DNA of 24,682 nt. Origin: a virus. Within the stretch, counting starts at the first letter, position 1; each line of letters starts with the position of its first letter. The notes under the pieces are model-generated. The model had not been told where the DNA came from, searched no databases, and saw nothing but the letters and a program-made list of their open reading frames with translations. A program made the position numbers and the translations under genes. Location of the stretch: positions 1-24,682 of the IMG/VR virus record IMGVR_UViG_3300042465_002790, one strand, 5' to 3'. Below are positions 15,863 to 22,092 of the stretch, one piece after another.

Positions 15863-17104
15863 ATGCCCCCACGATACCTCCGCAAAGGATCAACACGACT
15901 CAAGCCGTGCTCTGAGTTCACTGTCGAAGCATGCGACCTTGCTCCTGCTGATCAATGTTGTGGGTCGCTGCCCTGTGCGCTATGTCTCGAACTGGAAGTC
16001 TACGGCGAAGCCACCACGTACGGTACAGCGACGTTCGGCGGATCGTCATGGACTGGCACGGTTGGCGGGCTGTCGTTTGTTTCGTATTGGGAGCGTGACA
16101 CATACGGTGAGTGTGAATACGTCGTCACCTTGGACGGCGAAGAAGTATACCGAGCGACCTGCTACGAGGGAGCAAGCTGTCGAGATCCAGGCGGGTCGGT
16201 CGGTGTGCTGATTGGTTACGACGAAGGCACGCTCACATGGGTGAAGCACGAACCACGACCGCTGGCAGTGGTGGTCGATCCTGACACGGGGTGCAATGAT
16301 TTCTTCTGCGGGACTTGTCGGTGCAGTTGCAGAACATTGTGCGTTGATGTTTTCGAAGTCCTGTCAGTGTACGACACGGACTTTGCTGTAGACACATATT
16401 CCGGAACACTTACAGACACAGCTTACAGTGACTGTGACCCACCAGTTTGGGAGGGCACAATTGGTAACTTTACAATCAGGTTGGCACTGGGGCGAGACAG
16501 TTATGGTAACTGTATCGTCACTGGGACAGTAAACGGGGAAGAATCTACCGTCAGCGTCACTGGCTGCGAAGACCTGTCCGGCACTGTTGAAATGTATGAT
16601 GGTTCGTATTTCAACTTTCGGTGCAATGACTGCAACAACTGCGCAACGGTCATCGGTGATTGTATTTGCGGTCGACCGCTGGGGCAGACATTAACGCTGT
16701 TGTGGTCATCCGGAAACGGAACGCATGGAGATGCACCGCGAGAGTTCCCGCTCAGTTACGGTCTGACGAGTGCCGAAGGCATTGTGTGCGCCCCGTACCC
16801 AACTGGAGGACCATTTCCAGCCTACACGGGAAGTGCCTCCGGCACGTTTCCTATACCGATGGGCGGAACACGCGGCGACACGCTTTACGTAATGATGGTG
16901 TGTTGTATCGGATGTCCGCTGTGCGTTTACTATCGCTACGCAACCGCCATAGCTGTCGGGGATTTGACGTGGTATCTGACTTACATCAACGTTATCGGGA
17001 TGGATTGTAATTGCCCCGCAATTCTTCCCGTGGATTCATTTTCTGCCCCACTTGATTATCAAATCGAGGACATCACAATCTTTGAAGAGGCGAGCAACTG
17101 CTAA
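15863..17104 (+). CDS. Cys-rich repeat virion protein (candidate tail adhesin)
   Basis: 413 aa with 31 cysteines (about 7.5%), which is extreme. It contains two clear divergent repeats. Repeat 1 spans about residues 40-151 and repeat 2 about 157-260. Shared landmarks are 'W[TE]GT[VI]G' (63 and 196), 'RD[TS]YG[EN]C' (78 and 211), 'GEE' (92 and 225) and closing CxxC clusters ('FFCGTCRCSC' and 'RCNDCNNC'). The last ~150 residues ('CICGRPLGQTLTLLWSSGNG', 'MMVCCIGCPLCVYYRY') may be a third, more divergent unit. No signal peptide or catalytic motif. As the largest distal tail-region protein it is the best receptor-binding candidate; this is inferred. Its stop overlaps the next start by 1 nt (TAATG). 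Confidence 0.75.
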   Translation: MPPRYLRKGSTRLKPCSEFTVEACDLAPADQCCGSLPCALCLELEVYGEATTYGTATFGGSSWTGTVGGLSFVSYWERDTYGECEYVVTLDGEEVYRATCYEGASCRDPGGSVGVLIGYDEGTLTWVKHEPRPLAVVVDPDTGCNDFFCGTCRCSCRTLCVDVFEVLSVYDTDFAVDTYSGTLTDTAYSDCDPPVWEGTIGNFTIRLALGRDSYGNCIVTGTVNGEESTVSVTGCEDLSGTVEMYDGSYFNFRCNDCNNCATVIGDCICGRPLGQTLTLLWSSGNGTHGDAPREFPLSYGLTSAEGIVCAPYPTGGPFPAYTGSASGTFPIPMGGTRGDTLYVMMVCCIGCPLCVYYRYATAIAVGDLTWYLTYINVIGMDCNCPAILPVDSFSAPLDYQIEDITIFEEASNC

Positions 17105-18519
17105 TGAGCGACTGCCAGTGTGAAATCTCAGGCTTTTGTACTCTGCGAAACGTCGCACTGAAGCCCACATTGCAGACGCTTTGTAAGCGAGACAAGCCGC
17201 GTATTGACGCGATGCTGGCGGGTGAAGCGTACGTGTCGCCGCAGGCCAAGGCAGCAACAAGCCCGCAACGCCGATCCTGCAGCACCTCAAAGCGTGGCAA
17301 ATGCACCGACTGCTCAAACGCTGGCACGCTTATGATGGCAGCGATTCAAGCGGACACCGGACAACCCGTGTCATGCGGAAGCTGCAAAACTTATTTGCTG
17401 TCACTCGACCGCATGTCCTCGCACGATCATGCAGCGATCGTTCAGAAACTTTACGCTGAAATCTCATGGCCGCAGTCATGGCGTGCAAAGCACGGTGACA
17501 AAGACGGACAGCGAGCACGAATCAGTGAGATTGTTTCGGGCGTGTTGGCAACGGCGACGACGACTTGCAAGGTGGTAAGGCCGAGCAGGTCGCACAGGCC
17601 AGTTGCCCGTGCAAGAACCAGTAACCGTGGAGCATTCCGACAAGGCTCAGGGCCAGTGCGTTTTGTGCGGTCATCACAGTTCCAATTCGACATCCTCAAT
17701 CTGATTGCGAAGATTCCTCCAGACATCACAGCCATTGCAGGCGTGGCAAGATCGGGGTTAAGTGCTGCGACGATGCTTTCGATGTACTTGCACCTGCCGA
17801 TGATTACGATTCGGCAGACCATGAACGATGTAATTCAGACTGGCAACGGATGGCGGCTCGGGGGTTCAAAGCATGTTAATCCGAGAACGGAAAAGATCCT
17901 TGTTGTCGACGACACAGTGATGACTGGCAACAGCCTGAAAGCTATCGCACCGCTGATTGATCGTGAGTTTGGAAACGCGATATACGCAGCCATCTACGTT
18001 AATCCAGCAGCGACACGAAAGCCTGACATCTGGTCAGTCGATCTACCGTGGCCACATATCCTTGAATGGAATGTTTTCAACTCGATTCTATCCCCTTCTA
18101 CAGCAATGGACTTCGACGGCATTCTTTGCCATGACTGTCCACCGGGAAGCGATGACGACGGGCCGAAGTATCTGGATTTCATCCGCAATGCTCCTCCGCT
18201 TTACATGCCGCGCCGGTGCCCTGTCCCGTTGATCGTGACGGCACGAATCGAGAAGTACCGAGCGGAAACAGAAGCATGGCTACGACGGCACGGGATCGCA
18301 TGGCACAGGCTGGTTATGCACCCAGCGGCAACATTGAGGGAAAGGCAGAGAGACAACATCGCAGCCTACAAAGCTCACCATTATGCGACATGGGCACAGC
18401 ACTTCGTTGCACGACCGGGACCACATATCTTTTTTGAATCTGAAGACAGGCAGGCCCGTGAAATCGCACAAGTGTCGAAGCTGCTCACGATCTGCCCGCA
18501 CTCTGCAGGATGTTACTAA
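17104..18519 (+). CDS. Cys-rich domain + phosphoribosyltransferase + HAD phosphatase-like fusion
   Basis: 471 aa with three parts. Residues 1 to ~100 carry CxC, CxxC and similar Cys motifs ('MSDCQCEISGFCTL', 'KCTDCSN', 'VSCGSCKTYLL'), probably a zinc or attachment module. Residues ~190-330 are a type I phosphoribosyltransferase: 'ITAIAGVARSGLSAATM' and the PRPP-binding loop 'KILVVDDTVMTGNSLKA' (264-280). Residues ~333-460 look like a HAD hydrolase: 'AMDFDGILCHD' (D336, D338), 'VPLIVTARIEK' (Thr379), a basic 'YKAHH' and an acidic 'IFFESEDRQAREI'. The reaction is unknown; it could attach or trim a phosphoribosyl or nucleotide-sugar group. It sits between the Cys-rich protein and a methyltransferase in the late operon, which suggests a shared task. 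Confidence 0.8.
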   Translation: MSDCQCEISGFCTLRNVALKPTLQTLCKRDKPRIDAMLAGEAYVSPQAKAATSPQRRSCSTSKRGKCTDCSNAGTLMMAAIQADTGQPVSCGSCKTYLLSLDRMSSHDHAAIVQKLYAEISWPQSWRAKHGDKDGQRARISEIVSGVLATATTTCKVVRPSRSHRPVARARTSNRGAFRQGSGPVRFVRSSQFQFDILNLIAKIPPDITAIAGVARSGLSAATMLSMYLHLPMITIRQTMNDVIQTGNGWRLGGSKHVNPRTEKILVVDDTVMTGNSLKAIAPLIDREFGNAIYAAIYVNPAATRKPDIWSVDLPWPHILEWNVFNSILSPSTAMDFDGILCHDCPPGSDDDGPKYLDFIRNAPPLYMPRRCPVPLIVTARIEKYRAETEAWLRRHGIAWHRLVMHPAATLRERQRDNIAAYKAHHYATWAQHFVARPGPHIFFESEDRQAREIAQVSKLLTICPHSAGCY

Positions 18520-18520
18520 C

Positions 18521-19069
18521 GTGAACCGAGACGAAACAATAACGCAGTGCTATCAGGTGCCCGGTCAAATGTGGCCCGTTGAGATGGGTTGGCTTTACGA
18601 CACGTTTAGTCAAAGCAAATCACACGCGGAGATCGGCACATATTGCGGACGATCTCTGCTGGCAAGTTGTGCGGGAATGCAGCCGGGGGCGAGTGTGGTT
18701 TCAGTCGATGATGAGAGCATCTGGCAAAACAAGGAGTGGACGAAGACAGTTCAGCAAGCAACTTTTGATCTGCTTCCTGATCACATATCGGTCAAGACAT
18801 TTGCGATGCAATCGATCGACGCAGCTCGTGAATGTCATCGCACCGGACTGCGATTCGATTCCGTGTTCATTGACGCGGATCACAACTACGCAGAATGTAA
18901 AGCAGATATCGAAGCATGGAGGCCATTGCTAAAACCGGGCGGTCTGATCTGCGGTCATGATTACTGGACACAGGATGTTGGTGTCATGGACGCGGTCAAT
19001 GAAGTCTTCGAGGGGCGGCACGAGGTTGTGCCGGGAACGCGTATTTGGTTTCACAGAGCACCGTCATAG
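18521..19069 (+). CDS. SAM-dependent methyltransferase (Methyltransf_24-like)
   Basis: 182 aa from GTG 18521, with AGGA 10 nt upstream; ATG 18569 is an alternative. The upstream ATG at 18383 would overlap the previous gene by 137 nt and lacks support. 'HAEIGTYCGRSLLASCAGM' is the SAM-binding loop, 'VVSVDDES' the second acidic motif, and 'SVFIDADHNYAECKADIEAW' with 'LLKPGGLICGHDYW' are the hallmark of the Methyltransf_24/cephalosporin-hydroxylase-like group common in glycan clusters. Last gene of the late operon; a large hairpin follows after 32 nt. The substrate is unknown but may be the same glycan or protein targeted by the PRTase-HAD protein. Confidence 0.82.
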   Translation: MNRDETITQCYQVPGQMWPVEMGWLYDTFSQSKSHAEIGTYCGRSLLASCAGMQPGASVVSVDDESIWQNKEWTKTVQQATFDLLPDHISVKTFAMQSIDAARECHRTGLRFDSVFIDADHNYAECKADIEAWRPLLKPGGLICGHDYWTQDVGVMDAVNEVFEGRHEVVPGTRIWFHRAPS

Positions 19070-19101
19070 TTGCAGCGACGCCCCAATAAAATGAGCGTGG
19101 C

Positions 19102-19153
19102 AAAACGAAGCCTGGGAAGGGCCAGTCTCGATCGGGACTGGCTCGCTTCGTTT
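19102..19153 (+). terminator. Probable late-operon terminator (two-tier hairpin)
   Basis: Outer stem AAACGAAGC (ending 19111) with GCTTCGTTT (19145-19153), inner stem GCCAGTC (19121-19127) with GACTGGC (19136-19142), separated by an asymmetric internal loop. It begins 32 nt after the last late gene. The U-tract is short on the + strand (GTTTCT); read on the other strand the outer stem ends in TTTT, so it may act in both directions. Confidence 0.6.
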
Positions 19154-19223
19154 CTACCAGCCGCAAGCCGTTCGGCAGTCATGCTGATGAGTCCTTGTGC
19201 AGACGGGTCGAGACGGCGGAAGT

Positions 19224-19246
19224 GACAGAGCAGGCTTTCCTCTGTC
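19224..19246 (+). other. Small hairpin upstream of the leader promoter
   Basis: Perfect 7-bp inverted repeat: GACAGAG (19224-19230) and CTCTGTC (19240-19246) around a 9-nt loop. It lies 45 nt before the -35 element. Could be an operator for a dimeric repressor or part of a longer RNA; no T-tract follows, so it is not a terminator. Confidence 0.4.
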
Positions 19247-19290
19247 GAAGCGGATTCAGTGGCTCCGAAAATAATTCTCAAGAACATCTG

Positions 19291-19318
19291 TTGACATCGC
19301 CGATAAGATTTGTAATCT
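19291..19318 (+). promoter_or_regulatory. Promoter-like site for the leader RNA
   Basis: A perfect TTGACA at 19291-19296. Candidate -10 elements are TAATCT at 19313-19318 (16-nt spacer, 3/6 match) or TGTAAT at 19311-19316 (14-nt spacer, 5/6 match), so the -10 is ambiguous. It follows the late-operon terminator and precedes a hairpin/terminator pair, so it is the natural start point for transcription of the genes from 19441. Confidence 0.5.
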
Positions 19319-19323
19319 TTCCG

Positions 19324-19425
19324 ACCAGCCGTGCAAGAGGCTGACCGAATTCAAACAGTGGTCCGCGAAAGCTGATCAATGTAAAACCGCCCGAGACGCT
19401 TGCACGTTTCGGAGCGGTTTTTTTT
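19324..19425 (+). ncRNA. Candidate ~100-nt structured RNA / attenuator with complementary loops
   Basis: Between the promoter-like site and the first codon of the next gene lies a short transcript with two hairpins. Hairpin 1: CAGCC (19326-19330) with GGCTG (19339-19343), loop GTGCAAGA. Hairpin 2 is the terminator at 19383-19425, loop GCTTGCAC. The loops are complementary: CGTGCAAG (19330-19337) is the exact reverse complement of CTTGCACG (19399-19406), so a kissing interaction is possible. The downstream gene's GGAG begins 3 nt after the T-tract, which suggests attenuation of the 19441 operon; a free-standing small RNA is the alternative. Confidence 0.5.
19383..19425 (+). terminator. Strong intrinsic terminator just upstream of the 19441 gene
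   Basis: AAAACCGC-CCGAGAC (19383-19397) pairs with GTTTCGG-A-GCGGTTTT (19406-19421), 15 bp with one bulged A and one G-U pair, an 8-nt loop, then eight T (19418-19425). It ends 15 nt before the next ATG. Confidence 0.9.
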
Positions 19426-19440
19426 ATGGAGTAATCCAAA

Positions 19441-19698
19441 ATGGCCGAAGAATCAAATACTGAAACAGCATTTCCCGCCATGACTCCCGGAGGCTACTGC
19501 ACGCCGGGGATGACGCTAAGAGACTGGTTTGCAGGTCAGGCGCTGGCGGCACTTATAGCGAGTGAAGTAAACGAGAGTGCGCACGGCGATTCGGAAGACG
19601 CATACATGTACGCCGACGCAATGCTCCTCGCCCGCGAACCAAAGCCAGACACCACAACAGCCCAGCACATCGCCCTCGGGATCGGGGGTGGCAAGTGA
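19441..19698 (+). CDS. Small conserved phage protein, unknown function
   Basis: 85 aa. 'GMTLRDWFAGQALAALIAS' followed by 'DAYMYADAMLLAREPK' is a pattern I know from many small phage proteins found near replication genes; their function is not established. The N-terminus is polar and Thr/Pro-rich, and there is no membrane segment. GGAG (19428-19431) lies 9 nt upstream of ATG 19441, immediately after the terminator T-tract. First gene of the second operon; its stop overlaps the helicase start (GTGA). Confidence 0.75.
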   Translation: MAEESNTETAFPAMTPGGYCTPGMTLRDWFAGQALAALIASEVNESAHGDSEDAYMYADAMLLAREPKPDTTTAQHIALGIGGGK

Positions 19699-21173
19699 GA
19701 ATCGACTTCGATACACGTTCAGCGGAAGACTACGCGCGTTTTCTGGCTGTACGCAAATGCCCGATCTATCAATTCAAGGGATCGGCCGCAATTGTCCCGG
19801 ACGAATACGCCTTTCTTATTGGCGTCAAGTCAAAGCGAAAGGCTGGCAAGAAATACACGCCGGCTGTTAAGCTGTTTGACTACCAAGCGGACATCGTTCG
19901 CATCGCCGTCGAACGTCGCAAGTATGCGATATTTGCAGACTGCGGACTCGGCAAAACTCTGATGCTCCTGGAGTACGCTCGCCACTGTGCTGAGCAGACG
20001 AGGGGAAAAGTGCTGATTGTTTCCCCATTGATGGTCTGCCGTCAGACAGTAGAAGAAGCTTTGCGATGGTACGGCGAAGCATTCCCGATCGGTCGAGTGA
20101 AAGCCGCTGATTTGCAGGAATGGCTGAATACCAGCAATGGGCCGCAAATCGGAATCACCAACTACGAAGCAATCCGCGAAGATCTTGCGCCGGGAAAACT
20201 GACTGGCCTGATTCTTGACGAGTCGTCAATGCTCAAGAGTCATTACGGTGCATGGGGGACGCGGCTGATTGATTTGGGCCGTGGGCTCGATTGGAAACTG
20301 TGCTGCACTGGAACGCCAGCTCCGAACGATCGGATTGAATTCGCGAATCATGCGGTGCTGTTGGACCGTGCGAAAACCGTCAATGAGTTTTTAGCCACCT
20401 ACTTCATTAATCGTGGCGAGACTCAAAACCGATGGGAACTCAAGCCGCACGCATTAAAGCCGTTCTATCGGTCGCTGGCTGATTGGTCGATCTTCCTGAC
20501 GAATCCAGCCACCTACGGATGGAAAGATAACGTCGGAGTCACTCCGCCGATCAATATCCACATCGACCACATCGACCTGACTGACGAACAACGCAAAGCC
20601 GCTCAGGCTGTCACGGGATCACTGATCACAAACAACATCGGCGGCATTGGCGATCGCGGCAAGCTGTCTCAGATCGCAAAAGGCAAGGGCGGAATAGCGT
20701 CGCTGAAGCCTGCATTCATTCGGGCACAGGTCGAGAGTTGGCCGGATGAAAGCACAATCATCTGGTGCCATTACAACGACGAACAAGAGCGGATGGAAAA
20801 GCTGTTTCCTGAGGCTGTGAGTGTTTCCGGTGACACGAAAGAAGCAGACCGGGAAGCGGCTGTGGATGCGTTTAAAGCCGGGCGGGCAAAGATCCTGATC
20901 ACTAAGCCTAAACTGTTAGGTTTTGGTTTGAATCTACAGGTCTGCACGCGGCAGATCTTCAGCGGCATAAAGGACTCATACGAGGAGTTCTATCAGGCCG
21001 TCAAGCGATCGAATCGTATCGGTTCCACAAAGCCTCTCAATGTCCACATTCCAGTGACGGAACTGGAAGTCCCATTTGTCGACAACGTGCTCCGAAAAGC
21101 CGGTCGAGTTCAACAGGACACTGAAGAGCAGGAAGCACTTTTTAAGGATATCGGCCATGCATGTTTTCGATGA
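19695..21173 (+). CDS. SNF2-like superfamily 2 DNA helicase/translocase
   Basis: 492 aa with the full SF2 set: Walker A 'ADCGLGKTLM' (81-90), 'VLIVSPLMV' motif Ia (106-114), motif II 'LILDESSML' (172-180, DESS in place of DEAH), motif III 'CCTGTPAPND' (203-212), and in the second RecA lobe 'IIWCHYNDEQ', 'ITKPKLLGFGLNLQ' and motif VI 'QAVKRSNRIGSTKP'. The order and spacing are those of the compact SNF2-like helicases common in phages. It probably uses ATP to move on or remodel duplex DNA during replication or recombination. The start is GTG in a GTGA overlap. It overlaps the methyltransferase gene by 17 nt, so the two are tightly coupled. Confidence 0.9.
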   Translation: MRIDFDTRSAEDYARFLAVRKCPIYQFKGSAAIVPDEYAFLIGVKSKRKAGKKYTPAVKLFDYQADIVRIAVERRKYAIFADCGLGKTLMLLEYARHCAEQTRGKVLIVSPLMVCRQTVEEALRWYGEAFPIGRVKAADLQEWLNTSNGPQIGITNYEAIREDLAPGKLTGLILDESSMLKSHYGAWGTRLIDLGRGLDWKLCCTGTPAPNDRIEFANHAVLLDRAKTVNEFLATYFINRGETQNRWELKPHALKPFYRSLADWSIFLTNPATYGWKDNVGVTPPINIHIDHIDLTDEQRKAAQAVTGSLITNNIGGIGDRGKLSQIAKGKGGIASLKPAFIRAQVESWPDESTIIWCHYNDEQERMEKLFPEAVSVSGDTKEADREAAVDAFKAGRAKILITKPKLLGFGLNLQVCTRQIFSGIKDSYEEFYQAVKRSNRIGSTKPLNVHIPVTELEVPFVDNVLRKAGRVQQDTEEQEALFKDIGHACFR

Positions 21174-22092
21174 TTCAGAACAATATCACGTCCATCACGG
21201 CGACTGCATTCCGCACATGCTTGAAGACATGCCGGAAGACTCTGTGGACTTTGCAGTCTTCAGCCCGCCATTCCCGTCGCTATATGCTTACAGTGACGCA
21301 GAAGGCGACATTGGAAACGTCGACGCGATGGGCATGGAAGCGGCGGTGCATTTATCGTTCATGTTCAACGGGCTTCTGCGAGTTTTGAAACCGGGACGGG
21401 CGGCAATCGTTCACGTTTGCCAGATCCCACGAATGAAGCGATCGGGCGGAGTTGGGCTCTGTGACTTTCGAGGAACCAACATTCGGCTCGGTGAACGTGC
21501 GGGCCTTGTGTATGAATACGATTGGAGCGTTCGAAAGAATCCACAGTCACAAGCGATCAGAACACGAGCACGAGAACTACAGTTTTCCGGATTGGAAAGC
21601 GACCGATCGAAGCAACGCGGAACGCTGCAAGATTACCTGATCAAATTCCGCAAGCCTGGAGAAAACGCAGTCCCAATCGACGCCAAGGGGCAGGTCAGTC
21701 GAAACGATTGGATTGCATGGGCTGAGGGCTGCTGGGATGACGTACATGAAACTGACACGCTGAACACAGCAGCGGCAAAATCAGACGACGACACGCGGCA
21801 CATTTGCCCTCTCCAGCTTGAGGTGATTCGTCGATGTGTGCTGCTGTACTCAAACCCCGGTGAGATTGTTTTCAGCCCGTTTGCTGGTATCGGGTCGGAA
21901 GGATTCATGTCGCTCGGTGGAACATCACCAAAGACAAAAAAGACGATCTACGACACGCGGCGTTTTTATGGCTGCGAACTTAAAACGGAATACCACCAGC
22001 AGGCTCTGAAGAATCTGTTGTTGGCAAGCCGGCAACATTCCGCTGTCCATCAGACAAGCTTGTTCGCGGAACTTGAGGAGGTCGCCCCATGA
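21157..22092 (+). CDS. Orphan DNA methyltransferase (SPPF motif, likely m4C or m6A)
   Basis: 311 aa. The catalytic motif IV is 'VFSPPFPSLYAYSD' (34-47) and comes first; the SAM-binding motif 'VFSPFAGIGSEGF' (238-250) follows near the C-terminus with 'FYGCELKTEYHQQALKNL' after it. This circularly ordered arrangement is the beta class of amino-methyltransferases. The SPPF form is known from N4-cytosine enzymes such as M.PvuII, though N6-adenine cannot be excluded. ATG 21157 has AAGGA 8 nt upstream and is preferred to the ATG at 21076 inside the helicase gene. No restriction endonuclease partner is encoded nearby, so it is an orphan enzyme, possibly protecting phage DNA or marking it for the helicase or resolvase. 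Confidence 0.88.
   Translation: MHVFDDSEQYHVHHGDCIPHMLEDMPEDSVDFAVFSPPFPSLYAYSDAEGDIGNVDAMGMEAAVHLSFMFNGLLRVLKPGRAAIVHVCQIPRMKRSGGVGLCDFRGTNIRLGERAGLVYEYDWSVRKNPQSQAIRTRARELQFSGLESDRSKQRGTLQDYLIKFRKPGENAVPIDAKGQVSRNDWIAWAEGCWDDVHETDTLNTAAAKSDDDTRHICPLQLEVIRRCVLLYSNPGEIVFSPFAGIGSEGFMSLGGTSPKTKKTIYDTRRFYGCELKTEYHQQALKNLLLASRQHSAVHQTSLFAELEEVAP

Follow-up and report, generated by a model that had tools for sequence, protein, structure and literature searches.

The window, that is, the whole stretch of 24,682 nucleotides that was analysed, is an IMG/VR virus record and carries terminase, portal and tape-measure genes (Pfam, PHROGs). An upstream operon that includes a methyltransferase gene ends at 19069, and the terminator scan places a hairpin, GGGCCAGTCTCGATCGGGACTGGCTC, at its end (19119-19144). 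In loci L274-L276, a methyltransferase gene is likewise followed by a CGATCGG-centred hairpin resembling this one. Another gene of the upstream operon, at 17104-18519, encodes 471 aa; its product contains a phosphoribosyltransferase domain (Pfam E=1.4e-7) and weakly matches polynucleotide kinase (PHROG). A second operon opens with TTGACA at 19291, and its leader (19326-19425) contains two hairpins and a terminator, in that order, with a Shine-Dalgarno-like element and an ATG next. A blastn search of INPHARED with 18800-21200 as the query gave zero matches. The features of the second operon are as follows.

19291-19319, plus strand: promoter, -35 TTGACA (19291-19296), 17-nt spacer and weak -10 AATCTT (19314-19319); from the sequence.
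19326-19343, plus strand: hairpin 1, CAGCC-GTGCAAGA-GGCTG, loop GTGCAAGA at 19331-19338; from the fold and stem covariation.
19331-19337, plus strand: kissing partner 1, GTGCAAG; exact complement of 19399-19405.
19355-19382, plus strand: hairpin 2, interrupted stem with a GAAA tetraloop (19367-19370); from the fold.
19383-19425, plus strand: intrinsic terminator, stem 19383-19421, loop GCTTGCAC at 19398-19405, U-tract 19418-19425; from the terminator scan, fold and stem covariation.
19399-19405, plus strand: kissing partner 2, CTTGCAC, within the terminator loop; exact complement of 19331-19337.
19428-19431, plus strand: Shine-Dalgarno-like GGAG directly 3' of the U-tract; from the sequence.
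19441-19698, plus strand: first gene of the putatively controlled operon, 85 aa, phrog_2201-like, function unassigned; from the ORF list and PHROGs (E=4.5e-13).
19695-21173, plus strand: SNF2/DEAD-type helicase gene, second in the operon; from Pfam and PHROGs.

The loops of hairpin 1 and the terminator are matched. An earlier sequence-only reading of this DNA had given CGTGCAAG (19330-19337) and CTTGCACG (19399-19406) as exact reverse complements, and these coordinates are right; the searched loop-complement pattern occurs once in the window and in 0 of 100 shuffles. On the strong terminator that the same reading had placed 15 nt before an ATG, the fold and the terminator scan agree: 19324-19430 folds at -42.9 kcal/mol (z = -4.7 against shuffles), and the ATG at 19441 lies 15 nt past the end of the U-tract. 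Its TTGACA promoter survives in part, the -35 being present but the -10 weak (AATCTT/TAATCT), and a strict sigma-70 scan of the window did not call the leader promoter. The same -35 is found in the window's orthologue L296 and in L164, L047, L069 and L151, and relatives have better promoters in the same place (TTGACK-N16-TATGAT in L118a and L118b; TTGACA-N18-TAGAAT in L151). Hairpin 1 is predicted to sit at about the expected transcription start (+1). Both hairpin 1 and the terminator had been recognized from the letters, but the GAAA-capped hairpin 2 had been overlooked. L296 (TTTTTTTATGGAGTTTCAAAATG) and most relatives have a Shine-Dalgarno-like element at the corresponding position.

Twenty representative phage loci share this architecture, and among them the kissing loops take 15 distinct sequences, near-duplicate records being left out of the count. 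Relatives of the helicase in IMG/VR supplied two leaders of the same plan with other loops, namely L013/L164 (GGTGCAAGC with GCTTGCACC) and L047 (GTGGAAGA with TCTTCCAC). L276 was reached via relatives of a neighbouring gene, and L296/L297 via the 85-aa protein downstream of the window's leader (72% identity). Scans for a terminator loop complementary to the loop of an upstream hairpin brought the count to 11 distinct modules, and an energy-based scan contributed L118a, L118b and L151. DNA patterns for hairpin 2 alone added L278, L281, L285 and others; three further matches to these patterns, L280, L283 and L284, were rejected as not being leaders. A strict pattern of hairpin 2 plus terminator returned only one known member and one unrelated match from IMG/VR, and a search for relatives of the L173 replication protein found none beyond itself. 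Two covariance models were also used. Model R1, in which the loops were left unpaired, was built on a padded seed of three sequences, as MAFFT left the structure unaligned; it recovered L171b, L173 and L160, all with perfect loops. Model R2 added L339 as a weak match with seven complementary loop bases.

Each of the 20 loci has seven loop-loop pairs, every one of them Watson-Crick and none G-U. Several members were selected by complementary-loop searches, and their pairing is partly by construction; those reached by the downstream protein, by hairpin 2 alone or by a covariance model are free of this bias. Because of the selection, the proper control is the same search, with the same criteria, on complemented or reversed loops: at the loop distance typical of the family, 45-72 nt, the reverse complement gave 13 matches (12 members and one antisense read), the complement 1 and the reverse 2. 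Kissing scans on terminator loops also yield false matches in coding sequence, and these were judged by the same controls. The complementarity of the loops is far beyond chance. Members found by the sequence of hairpin 2 alone showed full loop pairing in every case. We take the orthologue L296/L297 to be the decisive case, as it was discovered by the downstream protein and not by the RNA: its loops are GTACGAG/CTCGTAC against GTGCAAG/CTTGCAC in the window, so that two positions have changed and both are compensated, while the TTGACA promoter, U-tract, Shine-Dalgarno element (ATGGAG) and ATG are retained. L281 differs from L279/L162 in two loop pairs, in each of which both bases have changed (G-C to A-U and C-G to G-C), and these loci appear to be syntenic by the common start of their downstream reading frame.

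When the 13 core members are aligned, all 91 kissing cells are Watson-Crick without G-U, and each of the seven pairs has changed on both sides. The covariation score of the kissing pairs in these 13 members is 1.03, against 0.26 when shuffled and <=0.15 when slid; the stem pairs of hairpin 1 and of the terminator covary too. The check that the sequence-only reading had proposed, a search for compensating loop changes in related phages, was therefore passed, the window's own orthologue included, and the comparison supports a loop-loop contact kept by compensating changes across a phage leader family. Dimerization between RNAs through the palindrome TGCA, which had been suggested alongside, fares badly: TGCA occurs in only 5 of the 15 distinct loops, and for many loops, self-pairing of the first loop is predicted to be weak or unfavourable, the energies lying around zero or above it.

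Two cassettes on one 6.4-kb contig, L118a and L118b, have the promoter and the stem of hairpin 1 in common but differ in their loops, which match in cis only (the cross match is 3 nt). Although this pair came from the pairing scan, such a scan would not be expected to select for common stems that carry different, matched loops, and the loop matching points to action in cis. The two leaders, at L118:3114-3200 and L118:5625-5720, are paralogous, the first lying directly 5' of a helicase gene.

What stays constant in the family is a hairpin 1 located 5' of the terminator, loops of ~7-9 nt paired almost end to end, and the U-tract. Most loci also have a promoter-like site just 5' of hairpin 1 and a start codon soon after the U-tract. 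An ATG, scored by position and not necessarily the start used, lies <=18 nt from the U-tract in 18 of the 20 loci, the exceptions being L164 (53 nt) and L118b (none within 60 nt). The promoters of the window, L164, L160 and L339 are weak, and in L069 another hairpin follows the cassette. The second base of the 7-nt core of the hairpin 1 loop is U in 14 of 15. Hairpin 2 is a bulged hairpin in most relatives, often with a GNRA or UUCG cap, but is not essential: it is missing between hairpin 1 and the terminator in L118a, L118b and L339, and is found inside the terminator in L151. The L151 element (L151:8313-8440) combines its strong promoter with a GNRA hairpin (CCGC-GAAA-GCGG) and a kissing hairpin inside one large terminator.

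The genes that follow are varied and include the 85-aa gene, the helicase (directly 3' of the cassette in L164 and L118a), a sigma-70 region 4 protein, a deoxyribosyltransferase/nuclease protein and others. In L279 and L285, the cassette is common until just past the U-tract and the sequences then diverge, which argues that it moves as a promoter-leader module. On the minus strand of L171 (9968-10063), a kissing leader precedes the gene for the sigma-70 region 4 protein (Pfam E=5e-9), which is a possible regulator under cassette control.

We consider it probable, with some reserve, that these leaders are cis-acting promoter-plus-leader cassettes that serve as conditional terminators for early or replication operons of phages, the kissing contact setting termination. 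Transcription would begin at hairpin 1, pass the optional hairpin 2 and enter the intrinsic terminator, and the first gene of the operon would start at the Shine-Dalgarno element and ATG right past the U-tract. The ATG is so near the U-tract that a second promoter could not fit between them, and the mRNA of the operon should have to pass the terminator. The operon should then depend on readthrough, and for this reason we interpret the leader as a terminator that acts conditionally and in cis. Within one nascent RNA, the loops of hairpin 1 and the terminator would pair as a kissing helix of 7-9 bp, and this helix would set how often RNA polymerase terminates, thereby forming an attenuator. An unusual attenuator with a loop-loop contact had been suggested by the sequence-only reading; the contact is kept by compensation and the position of the cassette fits, whereas partial or regulated termination and readthrough are predicted from sequence. 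As in the attenuator class, a promoter-like site, a terminator and a gene follow in order, but most members lack an alternative antiterminator built on the terminator's 5' arm, and any switch would have to operate via the contact between the loops.

In most members, the complementarity stops at the loop or <=2 nt beyond, which argues for kissing rather than strand exchange; in L164 and L171a, it extends into the stems (13 and 11 pairs). A strand-exchange antiterminator competing for the terminator 5' arm was rejected for most members on this ground. Attenuation by a leader peptide was also rejected, since inspection by eye revealed no short ORF common to the leaders of the window, L164 and L296.

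How kissing would act on the terminator can be discussed in the light of the guanidine-IV (GGAM-1) riboswitch, in which a kissing contact to the terminator loop accompanies antitermination and a rigid structure of two hairpins is proposed to hold the outer terminator pairs apart (PMC7736828; PMC10907184). By analogy, kissing in the conditional terminators described here would tend to lower termination. Hairpin 1, completed first, would grip the terminator loop on its exit from the polymerase, and formation of the stem would be delayed or strained. A kinetic effect of this kind may be at least as likely as the rigid-structure effect of guanidine-IV, because the linkers may be too long for a geometry of that type. 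The sign could also be the opposite, with the kissing helix neutral or favouring termination, since a helix on the terminator loop would be geometrically compatible with a formed terminator. The likeliest regulator would be a phage or host RNA-binding protein that recognizes the kissing helix or hairpin 2.

The strict Watson-Crick pairing, together with the freedom of the sequence, suggests that shape and not sequence is read. There is a precedent in plasmid ColE1, where the 7-nt loops of RNA I and RNA II pair over their full length and Rop reads the complex by its shape, not its sequence; this kissing is intermolecular, controls plasmid replication and does not have a terminator loop as a partner. 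As in ColE1, the 7-nt loops of the phage leaders are fully paired, and a protein could read their shape. We suggest tentatively, and well short of expecting it, that the cassettes are ligand-free phage switches in which the fully paired helix between the +1 hairpin and the terminator loop is an antitermination signal, recognized by its shape either by RNA polymerase or by a phage protein resembling Rop, the loop sequence being a private address that would let several cassettes per phage work independently.

An unlikely alternative is that the cassette makes a stand-alone phage sRNA of ~80-110 nt, given a compact fold by its kissing loops, which acts in trans or binds a protein, the gene being merely nearby. 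The cassette does form a complete unit with its own promoter and strong terminator (84-122 nt from the -10 to the end of the U-tract across loci), its fold is highly stable, and it is reused 5' of different genes. Such an sRNA is, however, hard to reconcile with the ATG at 9-18 nt past the U-tract in most loci, which leaves no space for a promoter of the operon's own, and with the upstream operon of the window, which appears to stop at its own hairpin, 19119-19144. The loops are also not conserved, unlike a seed acting in trans, unless the target varies too.

We think it improbable that the family works by self-addressed feedback in trans, in which the hairpin 1 or terminator loop of the terminated RNA would pair with new leaders of the same cassette and alter their termination, so that RNA dose or phage copy number would feed back and the variable loops would prevent cross-talk. 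The 15 different and perfectly matched loop pairs without G-U would suit such a scheme, as would the differing loops of co-resident cassettes (L118a and L118b; L171a and L171b), which can be likened to those of plasmid antisense RNAs, where the loops are incompatibility determinants. Yet the cis partner, always only tens of nucleotides off, has a very high local concentration, L171a and L171b are still complementary to each other over 5 nt, and drift with compensation explains the variety of loops equally well. A purely structural role, in which the kissing helix shields the 5' end or the terminated RNA from nucleases or sharpens termination without any regulation, is the least probable, for although hairpin 1 lies at the predicted 5' end and kissing complexes with 5-7 pairs need no factors to form (PMC10907184), a simple terminator has no need of a kissing partner and an operon with strong, unregulated termination ahead of its first gene would be silent.

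Several known systems resemble the conditional terminators in part. The antitermination sites of the phages lambda (nut/boxB) and HK022 (put) are leader hairpins 5' of early genes, and hairpin 2 here is similarly small and often GNRA-capped, although it is not universal. We know of no loop-loop pairing with a terminator in nut or put, and a kissing scan of lambda, HK022, P22 and T7 found no such element. Plasmids pT181 and pIP501 use antisense attenuation by kissing RNAs. The same is true of RnaG-icsA, where, as in the leaders here, an intrinsic terminator is under the control of kissing hairpins in the leader, but the partner is a separate antisense RNA (PMC5394118), whereas here both loops are in one transcript and one of them is the terminator loop. 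In the cobalamin riboswitch env8, a kissing loop, L5-L13, couples the sensing part to the expression platform, but this riboswitch differs in hiding a ribosome-binding site, in being ligand-dependent and in having a large aptamer (PMC10907184).

The closest parallel in build is guanidine-IV, which shares with the leaders an upstream hairpin, an intrinsic terminator, a pseudoknot or kissing contact to the terminator loop, and association with non-homologous genes (PMC7736828; PMC10907184). Its loops contain the highly conserved nucleotides of the guanidine pocket (PMC7736828), whereas the leaders have 15 variable 7-nt loops that are all Watson-Crick paired; its genes are mostly transporters, with sugE-type and other guanidine-linked genes among those it precedes, whereas those examined here are phage early genes. 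With its variable loops and unrelated genes, we judge that the leader family is not a member of guanidine-IV. Rfam 15 yielded no match at the gathering score when the window was searched, nor any at E<=1 when the queries were the window leader and ten family members, and we found no intramolecular kissing terminator in phages in the open-access literature. The sequence-only reading knew of no named RNA family with this arrangement, which agrees with Rfam but must be qualified by the contact that guanidine-IV also makes with its terminator loop (PMC7736828; PMC10907184). As far as sequence comparison can tell, the leaders are a new RNA family within the leader terminators controlled by a kissing contact.

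As far as we could find, tertiary contacts with a terminator's own loop are established for one riboswitch class, the mechanism of which is still debated. A family with exchangeable, fully paired loops would let the effect of kissing on termination be tested free of ligand, and loop addresses that can be swapped would make such terminators useful programmable parts. The leaders are also candidate control elements for the early operons of phages related to planctomycete prophages, in which gene regulation is essentially unstudied. Helicase relatives in genomes are found at two prophage-like loci of Planctomycetes bacterium TBK1r (72% identity), in Thalassoglobus and in Gemmata, and one further relative (60% identity) is in a Parvularculaceae MAG; the phages that carry the leader family are likely to be planctomycete phages. 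Model R2 found no family leader, only marginal matches, in a sample of 392 planctomycete genomes or in 6 genomes including those of TBK1r, Thalassoglobus and Gemmata. The marginal matches were rejected because they lack a matching hairpin 1 and are ordinary terminators or coding sequence.

A few elements outside the family look similar. In a pig-gut Bacteroidia MAG (L191:6880-7000), a TATAAT promoter precedes a sequence that pairs, as GTAGCAG/CTGCTAC, with a terminator hairpin of very large size, and AAAGGAG and an ATG come next; its hairpin 1 folds differently, and this element is either a distant analogue or due to chance. In a Flavobacteriaceae MAG (L221:175-290), a single case, a hairpin loop, GGGGTAAA, is complementary to a terminator loop, TTTACCCC, 61 nt 3' of it. 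Hairpins of sequence CCCATCACCCAGCGGCGGGGTGATGG at L096:14858 and L152:13664 (minus strand) are partly complementary to a nearby hairpin. The CCCATCACCCAGCGGCGGGGTGATGG hairpins are also directly repeated in this phage group, a repeat that is distinct from the kissing leaders.
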